DNA from: Marinifilaceae bacterium
Lineage (GTDB): Bacteria > Bacteroidota > Bacteroidia > Bacteroidales > Marinifilaceae
Direction: 5' to 3'
Length of the DNA stretch: 34,210 bases
NCBI GenBank assembly: GCA_016936255.1
Contig: JAFGYE010000025.1
Location: 1-34,210, forward strand
The notes beneath the pieces were generated by a model. The model did no database searches and had not been told where the DNA came from. It was given only the letters and a program-made list of their open reading frames with translations. Made by a program: the position numbers and the translations under genes. Positions 18,944 to 34,210 of this stretch are shown piece after piece (the stretch's first letter is position 1; every line of letters begins with the position of its first letter).

Positions 18944-19809
18944 TGAAGATATGACCACACAAGCCGAACCGCCTGTCCATAGTAGCTGTTTCCAAATAAA
19001 TTCAGATGATTAAGGACATGGTACAAAAAATAGATATTCTCTCTATAATCATATCCTTGTGGAAGAGGCTTCTTTTTTTGATATGAACTGTAAAAATCAT
19101 TACTGAAGCCTCCAAATAGCTTTGTCATGGCTAAATCTGCTTCTCGGTGACCGTAATATACTGCAGGATCAATTAAGCAAGGATTCAAATCTTTATCGCA
19201 GATAAAATTACCATTCCATAAATCTCCATGCAATAAAGTTGGTTTTTCTTCACTTCCTTCTAAAATTTCTTCAATTCGTCCTTCTAAAACCAAAAAACCA
19301 TTTTTTAATTCAGTACCAACCAATCCGTTTTTTTCGGCCAACTTGTATTGATATAATAAGCGTTTGTTATAATAAAAATCGCACCAGTTATCGTTTTCAG
19401 TATTTTCAGCTATATTTAACTGAGGTGTCGCCCCTATGTAGTTGTCTTCTTTAAATCCGAATTTACCTGCGCATATTTTATGCAAATTTGCCATTTGTGT
19501 ACCAAAACGACTAAAAAAATCTTTGTCCTTTCTCCCCTCCTCAATGAATTCAAGCAATAAAACTTCTGAATCAACCAATAAAACTTCTGGAACTCTTATG
19601 CAGGCAGTTTTACGAATTTCCTTTAAGCCATTTGCTTCCTTAAAAAACATATCATCAGAATAAGGTTCTGTTTTTAAAAAGGCGTAACGACCATTCTCAA
19701 ACCGAATTTGATTTGTTGTGGCAATACTCCCATCAGAAATAGATTTAAAACCGGTAATTTTCTGACCAACTAAATCTTCAATTCTAGAAAAAACTCCCTC
19801 AATTCTCAT
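18940..19809 (-). CDS. Fructosamine kinase family protein
   Basis: A 289-residue protein of the fructosamine-3-kinase/aminoglycoside phosphotransferase fold. The catalytic loop is HGDLWNGNF (His194-Gly195-Asp196) and the metal-binding aspartate is in LIDPAVYYGHREADLAM. Lys46 in RYAFLKTEP is the likely ATP-site lysine. Bacterial members phosphorylate sugar-amine adducts such as ribulosamines and may repair glycated proteins. Its ATG overlaps the stop of the phosphatase gene (ATGA), the same neighbour pairing often seen with low-molecular-weight phosphatases, which could act on the phosphorylated adduct; that functional link is inference. Confidence 0.88.
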   Translation of the reverse strand: MRIEGVFSRIEDLVGQKITGFKSISDGSIATTNQIRFENGRYAFLKTEPYSDDMFFKEANGLKEIRKTACIRVPEVLLVDSEVLLLEFIEEGRKDKDFFSRFGTQMANLHKICAGKFGFKEDNYIGATPQLNIAENTENDNWCDFYYNKRLLYQYKLAEKNGLVGTELKNGFLVLEGRIEEILEGSEEKPTLLHGDLWNGNFICDKDLNPCLIDPAVYYGHREADLAMTKLFGGFSNDFYSSYQKKKPLPQGYDYRENIYFLYHVLNHLNLFGNSYYGQAVRLVWSYLH

Positions 19810-30677: not shown

Positions 30678-31370
30678 ATGATTGAATATTATTTGCATTT
30701 AAATCCATTAACCGATACTCCGGACGATTGTATAGCCAAACCATCCCCAATCGGTGTTTTAACCCGTGAAGATTTAATTAAAGCATGTTGTGCCGAAGGT
30801 ACAGGAATCACCCCATACGAGGCTGAGAGTATGTTTAAGCGTATCGAAACGGTGGTAACAGAGAATCTGGAAAAGGGCTACTCCATTAATACGCCATTAC
30901 TAAATATTTCGCCAAGTATTACCGGGGTGTTCAATAATTGGGATGACAGCTTTGATGGATCCCGTCACAAACTGCGTTTTAAATCATCACAGGGCGTATT
31001 GTTGAAGGCAGTTGCTGATTCGAGCAAACTTCACAAAATTGACCGTAAAAAGAGCATCATCGACATCTATAGTTTTACGGATCATTCCCTTGGTCAGGAA
31101 ACAGACAGTTTTCTGCCAAATGGTGTGGGTGAATTAAAGGGAAAACGATTAAAAATGGATACTTCAGACGAAAATCAAGGCATTTTCCTGATTGCTGAAG
31201 ATGGTACAGAACATCGTGTTGCGGTATATGTAACCAACACCGACAGCACTCAAATTTTTCAAATTCCTGAATTAACTGCCGGCCATTACGAATTACAGGT
31301 AAGGTGTATTGCCAAAAACAACAAAAAGCTTACCATTGGGTATTACGAGAAAACTCTAAGCGTAAAATAG
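30678..31370 (+). CDS. HU-like DNA-binding protein with DUF4469-type C-terminal domain
   Basis: A 230-residue protein. The N-terminal half (about 1-130) resembles the HU/IHF-type domain found in Bacteroidota HU-like proteins: YYLHLNPLTDTPDDCIAKP, then LTREDLIKACCAEGTGITPYEAESMFKRIETVVTENLEKGYSINTP. A linker leads to a beta-rich DUF4469-like domain (about 135-230), with LPNGVGELKGKRLKMDTSDENQGIFLI and ELTAGHYELQVR. Canonical HU is about 90 residues, so this is an extended form, probably a nucleoid or site-specific DNA-binding protein. Its target is unknown. A 23-bp-period repeat array begins about 65 bases after the stop, and a link to it is speculation. Confidence 0.8.
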   Translation: MIEYYLHLNPLTDTPDDCIAKPSPIGVLTREDLIKACCAEGTGITPYEAESMFKRIETVVTENLEKGYSINTPLLNISPSITGVFNNWDDSFDGSRHKLRFKSSQGVLLKAVADSSKLHKIDRKKSIIDIYSFTDHSLGQETDSFLPNGVGELKGKRLKMDTSDENQGIFLIAEDGTEHRVAVYVTNTDSTQIFQIPELTAGHYELQVRCIAKNNKKLTIGYYEKTLSVK

Positions 31371-31375
31371 CACAT

Positions 31376-31400
31376 AAAGCCGGTTGATCCGGCTTTTATT
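31376..31400 (+). terminator. Intrinsic terminator of the HU-like gene
   Basis: AAAGCCGG (31376-31383) pairs with CCGGCTTT (31389-31396) across a 5-base loop and is followed by TATTTTA. It lies five bases after the stop of the HU-like gene, so the repeat array beyond it is outside that transcript unless there is read-through. Confidence 0.8.
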
Positions 31401-31433: not shown

Positions 31434-31571
31434 TTCCCTCGAATTGCGCCAAACTTTTCCCTTGCGTTAGGCAATACTCTTCCCTTGCACTACTCCGAAG
31501 CTTTCCCTTGTACCAGACAATACCTTTCCCTTGTGCAAGGGAAAGACCTTCCCTATAGGTAGGGAAATTCT
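31434..31571. repeat. Six-unit tandem array, exact 23-bp period, TTCCCTTG core
   Basis: TTCCCT occurs at 31434, 31457, 31480, 31503, 31526 and 31549, each exactly 23 bases after the last. Four of the six continue to TTCCCTTG; the first reads TTCCCTCG and the last TTCCCTAT. The rest of each unit is variable, often with AA and a pyrimidine near its end. The last two units also carry inverted cores: CTTTCCCTTG-TG-CAAGGGAAAG (31524-31545) and TTCCCTA-TAGG-TAGGGAA (31549-31566). No direct repeat flanks or integrase gene are visible. The fixed period with variable filler suggests a phased protein-binding array or a structured RNA rather than a decaying duplication. Confidence 0.85.
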
Positions 31572-31741
31572 TATTTCATTGTAAGGGGATTCAGAGATTC
31601 GTAATGTAATAGTCAGCATTTCTATTTGATTGACTGATCTCCCTACAATCAGATTTTATCAATAGTTTATTTTTGATAATTTATTGTATTATCGGCACAT
31701 TATTTTTTAGTAAGTTTATGTGATCATAAAAACTACTATAT
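31572..31741. other. Spacer between repeat array and KAP NTPase gene
   Basis: About 170 AT-rich bases that should contain the promoter of the KAP gene. TAAGTTTA, one mismatch from the -7 pattern, lies about 25 bases before the ATG, but no -33 element has the right spacing. Confidence 0.3.
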
Positions 31742-34126
31742 ATGTCTAACAAATATCGGATTAATTCACTAAAAATTAAATCGATTGGTAAATTCTGGGT
31801 TTTATCAGTTATATCTTTCACTATACTTTTTGCATTTCAGAAAGGATTGACCAAAGCTTACGAAGAAGTATCACAGAATCTTCACTGGGAATTTTTCACT
31901 CCTTTTTTGATACTTCTTTTAAGCATGGGAATCTTAATCGTTAAAACTTTACAACTAAAGTGTGAAAAAGTAATATGGAAACCATATGATGCAATTCTTA
32001 CTGCTTCCTTACTATATATCATCCGAATATTTGTTTTAGATTTTACTGCTGTCGAAATTTCTTTTGTAGACTTTATTCGGAATGGAAATAACGCTCTGTT
32101 ATTTCTCTTTATAGTACTTACATGCCTGTATGTTTGCATTAAATTTATTTTGTGGCCGAAGAACTTCATTTTAAAAACGAAAACTGGTGATGAATCGAAT
32201 GAGGATCAATACGATCAGGATTTATCTTTAGAGCTTACGAAAGACTTTGAAGATATAGCGGACATAAATAAACTGAAAGACTTAGATAAGCTAGGTCGAT
32301 TTGACCATGCACAACAAATAAGCGAAGTAATCAACAACGTAAAGCCTAAGAAATCATTTGCAATAGGTATAAATGGCGATTGGGGATCAGGGAAAACGTC
32401 CTTTATTCATTTAGTAAAAAGGATAAATAAGATTGAACACCCAAATGCATGCAAGTTTATCACATTTAATCCTTGGTATTTCACCGGTACTGAAAAGGTG
32501 TTGTTAAAATTCCATGAGACTCTATTAGCAAATACTGGAAGCTTTTCCCTCTCCTTTCGGAATGAACTACACCGCTATTTTCAATTGATCTGCGCCACGG
32601 AAACAAGAATTTGGAAAAGCAACTTTCTACAATACTTTCAAAAACATGAAGATTTTCAATCTCAACATGAGAAACTAAAAGATTATTTCGAACAACTACC
32701 ACAGAAAATAGTCATTATTATTGACGATTTAGACCGATTACAAAAAGATGAAATATTGGTGCTGTTTAGAACCATTCGACTTATTGCTGATTTTCCTAAT
32801 GTGGTTTATATAGTGGGGTATTCTCCGGAATATATCAAAAACATTCTTGATGATACCGGGGTTGATGACCAACCTGGATTTATGGAGAAAATTTTTCAAT
32901 TAGAGTTTGATTTGCCAGAGCCAATGCCTAGTGATTTAAGAACATTTTGGAAATGTGTTATAGAAAAACATATTCCAGATGATGGATCTGACCTACAGAT
33001 GGGAATTATCGATAATATCGTTACGAATAGCATTTTACCAAACCTTAGAGATATAAAAAGGTTTTTGAATCAATTGACCATTAACTCATCTTTACCTGAA
33101 ATTAAAAACAACACCTATTTCCCTCAATTCTTTCTTCTCGAATTGATCTACTATTATGATACTGAAGCTTATGAAGATATAAGAAAGTCCAAATCTTTTG
33201 ATAATGATAAATATTTATTTAGTGGTGAAGAATTGGACAAGGGTACGAAGAAATTAATTGAACAAATTAAGAAACTTGATAAAAACACGAAGCACTCCGT
33301 ATTAAATCTGAAACATTTTAACAAATACTTTTTCAAAAGACTGAATAGAGAAAAAGATATTGATATTAAAGAGGTATTAGGCCTGTTTATTAGCCCAGAA
33401 TATGAAAAAAGATTGAGGCAACTGTACTTTATAAATGAATCTCAAATAATTGATCATGTATTAGAGATAATAGATAATCTAGATAGAAATAAAAACAAAT
33501 TAGATCAGAATAGTTGGACACAATACTTCGATAGGTTGTTCTTTTTATTTGAATTTATCTTTACATCAGAAGAGTTTGATAAAAATTACTTCAATAACGG
33601 AGCAGCTTCAAAAGGAAGAAGATTAATTAAGGGTATCTCTACAATTTGTAAACTAATTTCTAATGAGAATCCCCCTTTCACGAAGGAGGTAGAATACTTC
33701 AAAACAAAATTACATTATAAAAGTTTCTCTGAATTTATTCTAATTTTCGAATCAGAGAATAAAGAAATGAATGTAATCTTTTACAAATTGAACGAAGTAT
33801 TTCGAGATAAAATAAGATATGAAATAAAATGTTGCTTAATTGATACCACGCCTCTTCTAATTGCATTGTACAATTGCACTAAATTTATTAAATCGGTAAA
33901 TGGATTAGTTAGCGACTGTGTGTTTAATGATGAATATATACTTAAAGGGTTACGAGAGAAGTCAGAGATATTATATTCTGACATCAAAAAGTTGAATGAG
34001 AAGAATAAAGAATTATCAATCCTCAACTTCTTTGGATCGAAGGATGCTTTACTAAAACTAAATGATTACAATAACGATAGTGTATTTAGGATGTTGGATT
34101 CTCTTAAAGAATATTATCCTATGTAG
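31742..34126 (+). CDS. Membrane-anchored KAP family P-loop NTPase
   Basis: A 794-residue protein. Four hydrophobic segments near the N-terminus (about 17-33, 52-67, 84-99, 117-136) anchor it in the membrane, as in many KAP NTPases where helices are associated with the P-loop domain. Walker A is GDWGSGKTS at 212-220 and Walker B is IIIDDLDRL at about 325-333, with the double aspartates D328 and D329 and the following LDRL typical of KAP. The segment TIRLIADFPNVVYIVGYSPEYI fits the family too. The C-terminal 400 residues are charged, helical and not recognised. KAP NTPases occur in phage exclusion (PifA) and other membrane-linked defence or signalling roles; the role here is unknown. Confidence 0.88.
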   Translation: MSNKYRINSLKIKSIGKFWVLSVISFTILFAFQKGLTKAYEEVSQNLHWEFFTPFLILLLSMGILIVKTLQLKCEKVIWKPYDAILTASLLYIIRIFVLDFTAVEISFVDFIRNGNNALLFLFIVLTCLYVCIKFILWPKNFILKTKTGDESNEDQYDQDLSLELTKDFEDIADINKLKDLDKLGRFDHAQQISEVINNVKPKKSFAIGINGDWGSGKTSFIHLVKRINKIEHPNACKFITFNPWYFTGTEKVLLKFHETLLANTGSFSLSFRNELHRYFQLICATETRIWKSNFLQYFQKHEDFQSQHEKLKDYFEQLPQKIVIIIDDLDRLQKDEILVLFRTIRLIADFPNVVYIVGYSPEYIKNILDDTGVDDQPGFMEKIFQLEFDLPEPMPSDLRTFWKCVIEKHIPDDGSDLQMGIIDNIVTNSILPNLRDIKRFLNQLTINSSLPEIKNNTYFPQFFLLELIYYYDTEAYEDIRKSKSFDNDKYLFSGEELDKGTKKLIEQIKKLDKNTKHSVLNLKHFNKYFFKRLNREKDIDIKEVLGLFISPEYEKRLRQLYFINESQIIDHVLEIIDNLDRNKNKLDQNSWTQYFDRLFFLFEFIFTSEEFDKNYFNNGAASKGRRLIKGISTICKLISNENPPFTKEVEYFKTKLHYKSFSEFILIFESENKEMNVIFYKLNEVFRDKIRYEIKCCLIDTTPLLIALYNCTKFIKSVNGLVSDCVFNDEYILKGLREKSEILYSDIKKLNEKNKELSILNFFGSKDALLKLNDYNNDSVFRMLDSLKEYYPM

Positions 34127-34184
34127 TTTAGCCCCGAAAAAGACTGGAGTAAAATTTCAGATTTAAAACAGTTAAATTTAGGGT

Positions 34185-34210
34185 ATGAAAAGACGTTGGA
34201 CATTAGAAGA
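34185..34210 (+). CDS. Possible start of a further ORF, transposase-like (cut by window edge)
   Basis: An ATG at 34185 begins MKRRWTLE, open to the window edge after eight full codons. The basic start followed by WTLE resembles the first residues of IS3-family OrfA or related helix-turn-helix transposase proteins. The stretch is too short for a firm call, and no inverted repeat was identified in 34127-34184. Confidence 0.25.

Follow-up and report, generated by a model that had tools for sequence, protein, structure and literature searches.

A 34,210-nucleotide stretch of DNA from a marine bacterium of the genus Labilibaculum (the window, on contig C91 of a 4.7 Mb genome) carries a short sequence repeated at a fixed interval in a gap between two genes. 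The question raised by this locus is whether such regularity marks the binding sites of a protein, a structured RNA, or a repeat that has spread and been turned over.

Six TTCCCT cores begin at 31434, 31457, 31480, 31503, 31526 and 31549, a step of exactly 23 bases, as reported in the preliminary description. The two palindromes said to end the array were also confirmed, CTTTCCCTTG-TG-CAAGGGAAAG at 31524-31545 and TTCCCTA-TAGG-TAGGGAA at 31549-31566. Chance occurrence was assessed from the best phased run of any 6-mer at steps of 8-79 over the whole window, compared with 20 dinucleotide shuffles. The TTCCCT array (6 copies at step 23) was the top run in the window, and the longest run in the shuffles was 3 (14 shuffles) or 2 (6 shuffles) and never above 3. 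Tandem Repeats Finder, run at a minimum score of 30, returned no entry for 31434-31571, probably because adjacent units of the array are only ~65% alike. Feature coordinates are collected in Table 1.

Table 1 Coordinates of the array, its neighbours and related features. Positions are those of the window unless a label beginning with L is given.
Feature	Position	Strand	Remark
HU-DNA_bdg + DUF4469 protein (HU-like)	30678..31370	+	neighbour only
Terminator-like site of HU-like gene	31376..31396	+	just outside array
Tail unit 1 (TTCCCTCG...)	31434..31456	+	most decayed unit
Tail unit 2, type a (TTCCCTTGCGTTAGGCAATACTC)	31457..31479	+	
Tail unit 3, type b (TTCCCTTGCACTACTCCGAAGCT)	31480..31502	+	
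Tail unit 4, type c (TTCCCTTGTACCAGACAATACCT)	31503..31525	+	
10-bp-arm palindrome, TG centre	31524..31545	.	without enrichment elsewhere in genome
Head unit, 18-bp palindrome TTCCCTTGTGCAAGGGAA + linker	31526..31548	.	identical in 4/5 genomes
Last head unit, TTCCCTATAGGTAGGGAA palindrome	31549..31571	.	
GGAAATTCTTAT	31563..31574	+	head-end sequence common to loci A and B, five array genomes
KAP NTPase (PifA-like by PADLOC)	31742..34126	+	
Fold-back	L199:4143-4239		Labilibaculum sp. K2S; occupies place of array B tail in other genomes
Short-period spacer arrays	L276-L295 (G004), L236-L315 (G057), L316-L335 (G013)		

A search of the genome and its relatives for arrays of this spacing, proposed in the preliminary description, identified one sister array of the same motif at C74:11627-11782, in a convergent spacer flanked by genes for a peptidase and a UspA-like protein. 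The window array is henceforth referred to as locus A and the sister array as locus B. Weaker pattern matches elsewhere in the genome were found at about the level of a reversed control. A three-core pattern (≤3 mismatches) was detected in 5 of 56 family genomes (5 of the 9 within the genus, 0 of the 47 in other genera), and loci A and B both carry arrays in all five positive genomes. These include G057, of the same species as the window genome, L. euxinus A4 (G007), L. manganireducens 59.10-2M (G005) and Labilibaculum sp. K2S (G002). Among congener outgroups, the locus B spacer of G001, G003 and G004 is shorter and has no array, and in G003 and G004 neither the HU gene nor the array lies beside carB at locus A. 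The preliminary description had named, as signs of a merely local slippage event, unrelated sequence in relatives and the lack of any other such array; instead, relatives retain the array and a second one exists. Across the genome collection 77 stretches fit a three-unit pattern, 5 of which are Labilibaculum, and the other 72 have different units, among the matches listed. Seven viral contigs fit the pattern with other units. A few 23-bp arrays of hairpin units, alike in form, were seen in Bacteroidales and Spirochaete assemblies (L120, L136, L108, L101).

The array begins 37 bases beyond the hairpin that resembles a terminator of the HU-DNA_bdg/DUF4469 gene, and lies ahead of the KAP NTPase gene, an arrangement that agrees with the earlier account. 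The order HU - array - carB was observed in G057, G002, G005 and G007. The match between the window and G057 ends at 31593, with the KAP gene beyond, and KAP adjoins the array in only one of the five array genomes, that of the window; KAP is therefore a newcomer. The carB side of the window genome lies on another contig, where the insert end differs. A second small ORF was noted on this carB-bearing contig, alongside the PifA-like KAP insert (window 31594-34210). A close HU orthologue is present in the same five genomes that have array A, so the co-occurrence of HU gene and array that the preliminary description proposed to examine holds beside locus A, but not at locus B, where no HU gene is seen within 3 kb. 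The HU gene accompanies locus A only, and its absence from G001 and G006 is weak evidence because those assemblies are poor or incomplete. Both the HU and the KAP neighbours look incidental.

The claim that nothing but core and period is conserved was upheld for core and period but is too strong for the filler, which has conserved positions. Over 28 distinct tail units, chosen by hand from both loci, the consensus is TTCCCTTGYAYNASNCNMAASNT, and A10, A13, C16, A19 and A20 are conserved in the filler. Taken in register, each head unit comprises an 18-bp palindrome that keeps 4-8 of 9 dyad pairs, followed by 5 bases, and the last head unit (31549..31571) is a hairpin with a T-rich tail that has a terminator-like look on the + strand. 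The tail units may be decayed palindromes, since the 28 units average 3.6 of 9 dyad pairs vs 2.15 with permuted columns (2.2% of permutations reach 3.6).

The head end, comprising units -1 and 0 at locus A and -2 to 0 at locus B and ending in GGAAATTCTTAT, is the most stable part of the array across species. Tail units vary in number and are increasingly decayed with distance from the head, and the outer end is not conserved. Unit number differs between species by whole 23-mers and is equal in the two genomes of the same species. In G007 unit d abuts unit c, with two intervening units missing. In G005 the a-b pair is duplicated and c is missing, and the head unit resembles a chimera of type a and head. 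Locus B of G002 is a fold-back with 45-nt arms, 89% complementary and 7 nt apart. The whole-unit changes, the chimera-like unit of G005 and the fold-back of G002 point to exchange between units and copying across a hairpin as the likely makers of these forms.

Core and filler differ in how freely they change. In hand-matched columns, variation among tail units was found in 4/64 core and 24/120 filler positions (p = 0.017, with two sets including both G005 copies), position 9 being the most frequent change. At locus B, G000 and G057 (same species) differ at 7/60 tail filler, 0/32 core and 1/69 head positions, and in the flanks at 1/138 and 1/700 on the UspA side and 17/900 on the peptidase side. 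The corresponding values for G000 vs G007 are 11/60, 2/32 and 2/69, with 2/138 and 29/700 on the UspA side and 18/900 on the peptidase side. At locus A the same-species pair showed no filler excess (2/60 vs 14/900 upstream).

To survey similar arrays, sequence of G057, G002 and G004 (1.45 Mb) was compared with itself at fixed lags, covering 514 gaps between ORFs of at least 120 codons, which served as genes without annotation. Gaps <110 or >2500 bases or containing N were left out, and one array was called per gap. Arrays without a short period were present in 25 of the 514 gaps, compared with 0, 1, 0, 0 and 1 per 514 in five rounds of shuffled gaps under the same criterion. The periods were 21 (10 arrays), 42 (5), 41 (4), 23 (2) and 19, 36, 43 and 46 (one each), such that 24/25 fall at 19-23 or 41-46; the lag-19 (G004 330922), lag-36 and lag-46 (G004 339548) arrays are marginal. 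Both lag-23 arrays are orthologues at the window locus, and no other lag-23 array is found among the 25. Twelve of the 24 arrays lie in the 62 convergent gaps vs 12 in the 452 others (p = 3e-6), counts that are not independent because some arrays are orthologous among the three genomes (3 of the 9 similar pairs). The convergent-gap preference persists inside gap-length bins. With short-period segments excluded, noncoding autocorrelation peaks at lags 42, 21, 84 and 63, and no other lag from 11 to 100 exceeds z 1.5.

Nine pairs of similar arrays were found, of which 3 are orthologous, 4 are alike in the array alone and 2 also share scattered pieces. Some motifs recur at non-orthologous sites, similar arrays there having unrelated flanks, and two motifs searched across the genus had 0-4 copies per genome. 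The closest parallel to the window array is located at G004 122516-122746, where six forward 11-bp cores CTTCCGTAACA, exact in five cases and with 2 mismatches in the other, stand at steps of 21-22 bases with unrelated filler. Five inverted cores follow at 21-base steps. They are weaker (2-4 mismatches), and this half of the array rests on phase and two better matches because matches with ≤4 mismatches occur ~3 times per shuffle. Of 23 arrays tested, a number that includes the window locus once for each of two genomes, 15 had phase-clustered conservation, an ambiguous result because shared descent of units also yields it. The window array looks like one member of this larger, evenly spaced set favouring convergent gaps.

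Outside the genus, 400 kb of G013 yielded two heptamer arrays only by the survey criterion. A looser scan of G013 gave 17 clusters, of which two had lag 21 as a secondary signal, and autocorrelation in G013 reached z 2.3 at 21 and z 3.0 at 84; on the strength of these signals the class may not be confined to Labilibaculum. A further 296 kb of other genera, in twenty stretches with three of <2 kb skipped, contained three arrays, at lags 21, 44 and 11. Tandem arrays of 7, 8 and 10 bp (e.g. TTAGGAA, GACTTTTC) also occur in spacers, most commonly in G004. A 21-bp unit with two repeats, the period of the class, was noted in the window at 19545-19589.

The reading favoured here, with confidence that is about even, is that the array is a degenerate 23-bp low-copy minisatellite, dispersing and turned over by slippage and fold-back copying, as judged from comparison of the sequences. 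It would have entered two convergent spacers before a Labilibaculum subclade split, with the palindromic head (31526-31574) as its stable part and the run of tail units as its variable part. Slippage or unequal exchange would add and remove whole units, hairpin fold-back would copy stretches between units and strands, and exchange wiping out core mutations could account for part of the core uniformity. The array would belong to a genus-wide, sequence-diverse set whose unit spans roughly two helical turns (21 bp, or 42 bp when doubled), presumably of common origin with the 21-bp arrays, and tolerated best between convergent genes, where no promoter would be disturbed; an essential function is presumed absent. 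The same unit and head end at two loci in 5 of 9 genus genomes, and the outgroup spacers without arrays, were counted in its favour, as were the whole-unit differences, the fold-back of G002, the fast filler change at locus B, the class with its convergent preference and the similar arrays whose flanks are unrelated. Counted against it were the core varying less than the filler and the 11-bp core of G004 that is exact in 5 of 6 forward units despite unrelated filler, neither of them predicted by simple slippage, the lack of fast filler change at locus A, a class mode of 21 bp against 23 bp for the window array, and flanks of A and B that give no sign of a mobile vehicle.

How the repeat reached two loci bears on a further reading, in which the array is the remnant of a MITE, a non-autonomous transposable element carrying the repeats, as in BrickBuilt. 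The head end common to loci A and B would fit this, as would the restriction of similarity to the array itself in 4 of the 9 similar pairs, and 23-nt tandem repeats are described as a MITE in another Bacteroidales species (PMC4596501). However, comparison of 500 bp on each side of A and B in two genomes gave chance-level flank matches only (best E 0.1). Over 120 bp, exact inverted matches between the flanks reach 7-9 bases at most, and inverted ends of 10 bases or more were not found around arrays A and B, so that no mobile vehicle is seen. The empty sites are diverged, so that target duplications are unreadable there, and a MITE remnant is considered quite improbable. Of the preliminary suggestion of a mobile or replication-linked repeat, the mobile part is borne out by the second spacer and the gain and loss of whole units, making it the best of three guesses offered; no replication link was found.

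The main rival to a minisatellite is an array of protein sites between convergent genes, with one-turn cores about two turns apart kept by selection and serving as a boundary, roadblock or nucleoid anchor. The core is more conserved than the filler, the arrays prefer convergent gaps, and G004 presents six forward and then five weaker inverted cores. The best argument for protein sites is that unrelated motifs have a two-turn period in common (peaks 42, 21, 84 and 63). The phase-clustered conservation in 15/23 arrays also fits, but would likewise follow from shared descent of units. Cores differ among arrays, which would call for many different proteins; the window palindrome is not above its control elsewhere, and close congeners lack the arrays. 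Furthermore, the preliminary description had put every core on the same DNA face. With 10.5 bp to a helical turn, a 23-bp step makes 2.19 turns, so each core is rotated by ~69 degrees and no common face results; the claim is not strictly valid. The architectural site it proposed therefore suffers at the window array, where the 23-bp spacing keeps cores off a common face, but gains from the genus-wide class at 21 bp. Overall, protein sites are regarded as somewhat unlikely. A broader formulation, held to be unlikely, treats the class as a ruler of two helical turns placed between convergent genes, one turn being core and the other free filler, at times with a switch of orientation; it would reflect either a duplication machine measuring two turns or a core-reading protein family marking gene-end boundaries.

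A further possibility considered is that a small, structured RNA is transcribed across the array. The window array folds stably (z -4.1 on the + strand, z -2.6 on the - strand) and its head is terminator-like, in keeping with the structured RNA suggested earlier. However, the class folds no better than control gaps (mean z -1.1 for 25 arrays vs -1.6 for 30 control gaps), no Rfam family was found at gathering score (two sub-threshold matches), the distal end is unconserved, and promoter-like sites (sigma-70 type only) number 4 vs 3.4 expected from shuffles. A small RNA is consequently judged highly improbable.

Four further candidates were rejected. As to a replication terminus element, locus A of G057 lies ~10-50 kb from the cumulative GC-skew maximum, but G002 showed no skew flip in 60 kb to the contig end, and in 250 kb no sequence matched the E. 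coli dif arms at more than 16/22 positions. Single operators formed by the palindrome elsewhere were not enriched over control (28 forward and 30 reverse matches at ≤3 mismatches vs 29 and 27). Searches of phages and plasmids for an iteron origin gave no match at E 0.1. A CRISPR array has near-identical repeats and unique spacers, and here the 15-base filler has a consensus.

Returning to the minisatellite reading, broad unit lengths are expected of non-coding minisatellites. Unrelated motifs with one unit length (~two helical turns) and one spacer preference therefore pose a testable question, namely what fixes the length of bacterial tandem duplications, and also whether some convergent-gene spacers hold phased binding sites. 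The titles and abstracts of the literature searched contained no description of such arrays in Labilibaculum. Among known systems, plasmid iterons are directly repeated sites of ~20-22 bp; unlike these, the window array is chromosomal, lies between convergent genes and has no match in the plasmid collection. REP and BIME elements are intergenic palindromic repeats with many dispersed copies. The window array resembles them in its intergenic palindromes but differs in that its palindrome is not dispersed, being no commoner than a reversed control. TAACTGA heptamer direct repeats are intergenic in some Bacteroidetes, Cyanobacteria and Beggiatoaceae; in the Beggiatoaceae genome described, most of them lie directly ahead of start codons (PMC4679880). 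Their unit is 7 bp, whereas the Labilibaculum arrays have 21-23 bp and favour 3'-3' spacers.

By its described features, rather than its repeat letters, the nearest known kind is BrickBuilt of Porphyromonas gingivalis, a 23-nt minisatellite/MITE whose leader and tail segments have IS5-like terminal inverted repeats and which is present in 19 copies in one genome (Klein et al. 2015, PMC4596501). No counterpart of the leader, tail or IS5-like ends was found within 500 bp on either side of A and B in two genomes, and for this reason the window array is not filed as a BrickBuilt member. BrickBuilt also differs in that the window motif was found in two copies with an orientation switch inside the array, and the Labilibaculum class has many motifs at 21 or 42 bp. 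Both systems are intergenic in a Bacteroidales host and consist of imperfect, spacerless 23-nt tandem units with conserved and variable positions within the unit. Unit number changes in both, between strains in BrickBuilt and between species at fixed intergenic loci for the window array. BrickBuilt suggests a wider occurrence of the phenomenon in Bacteroidales.
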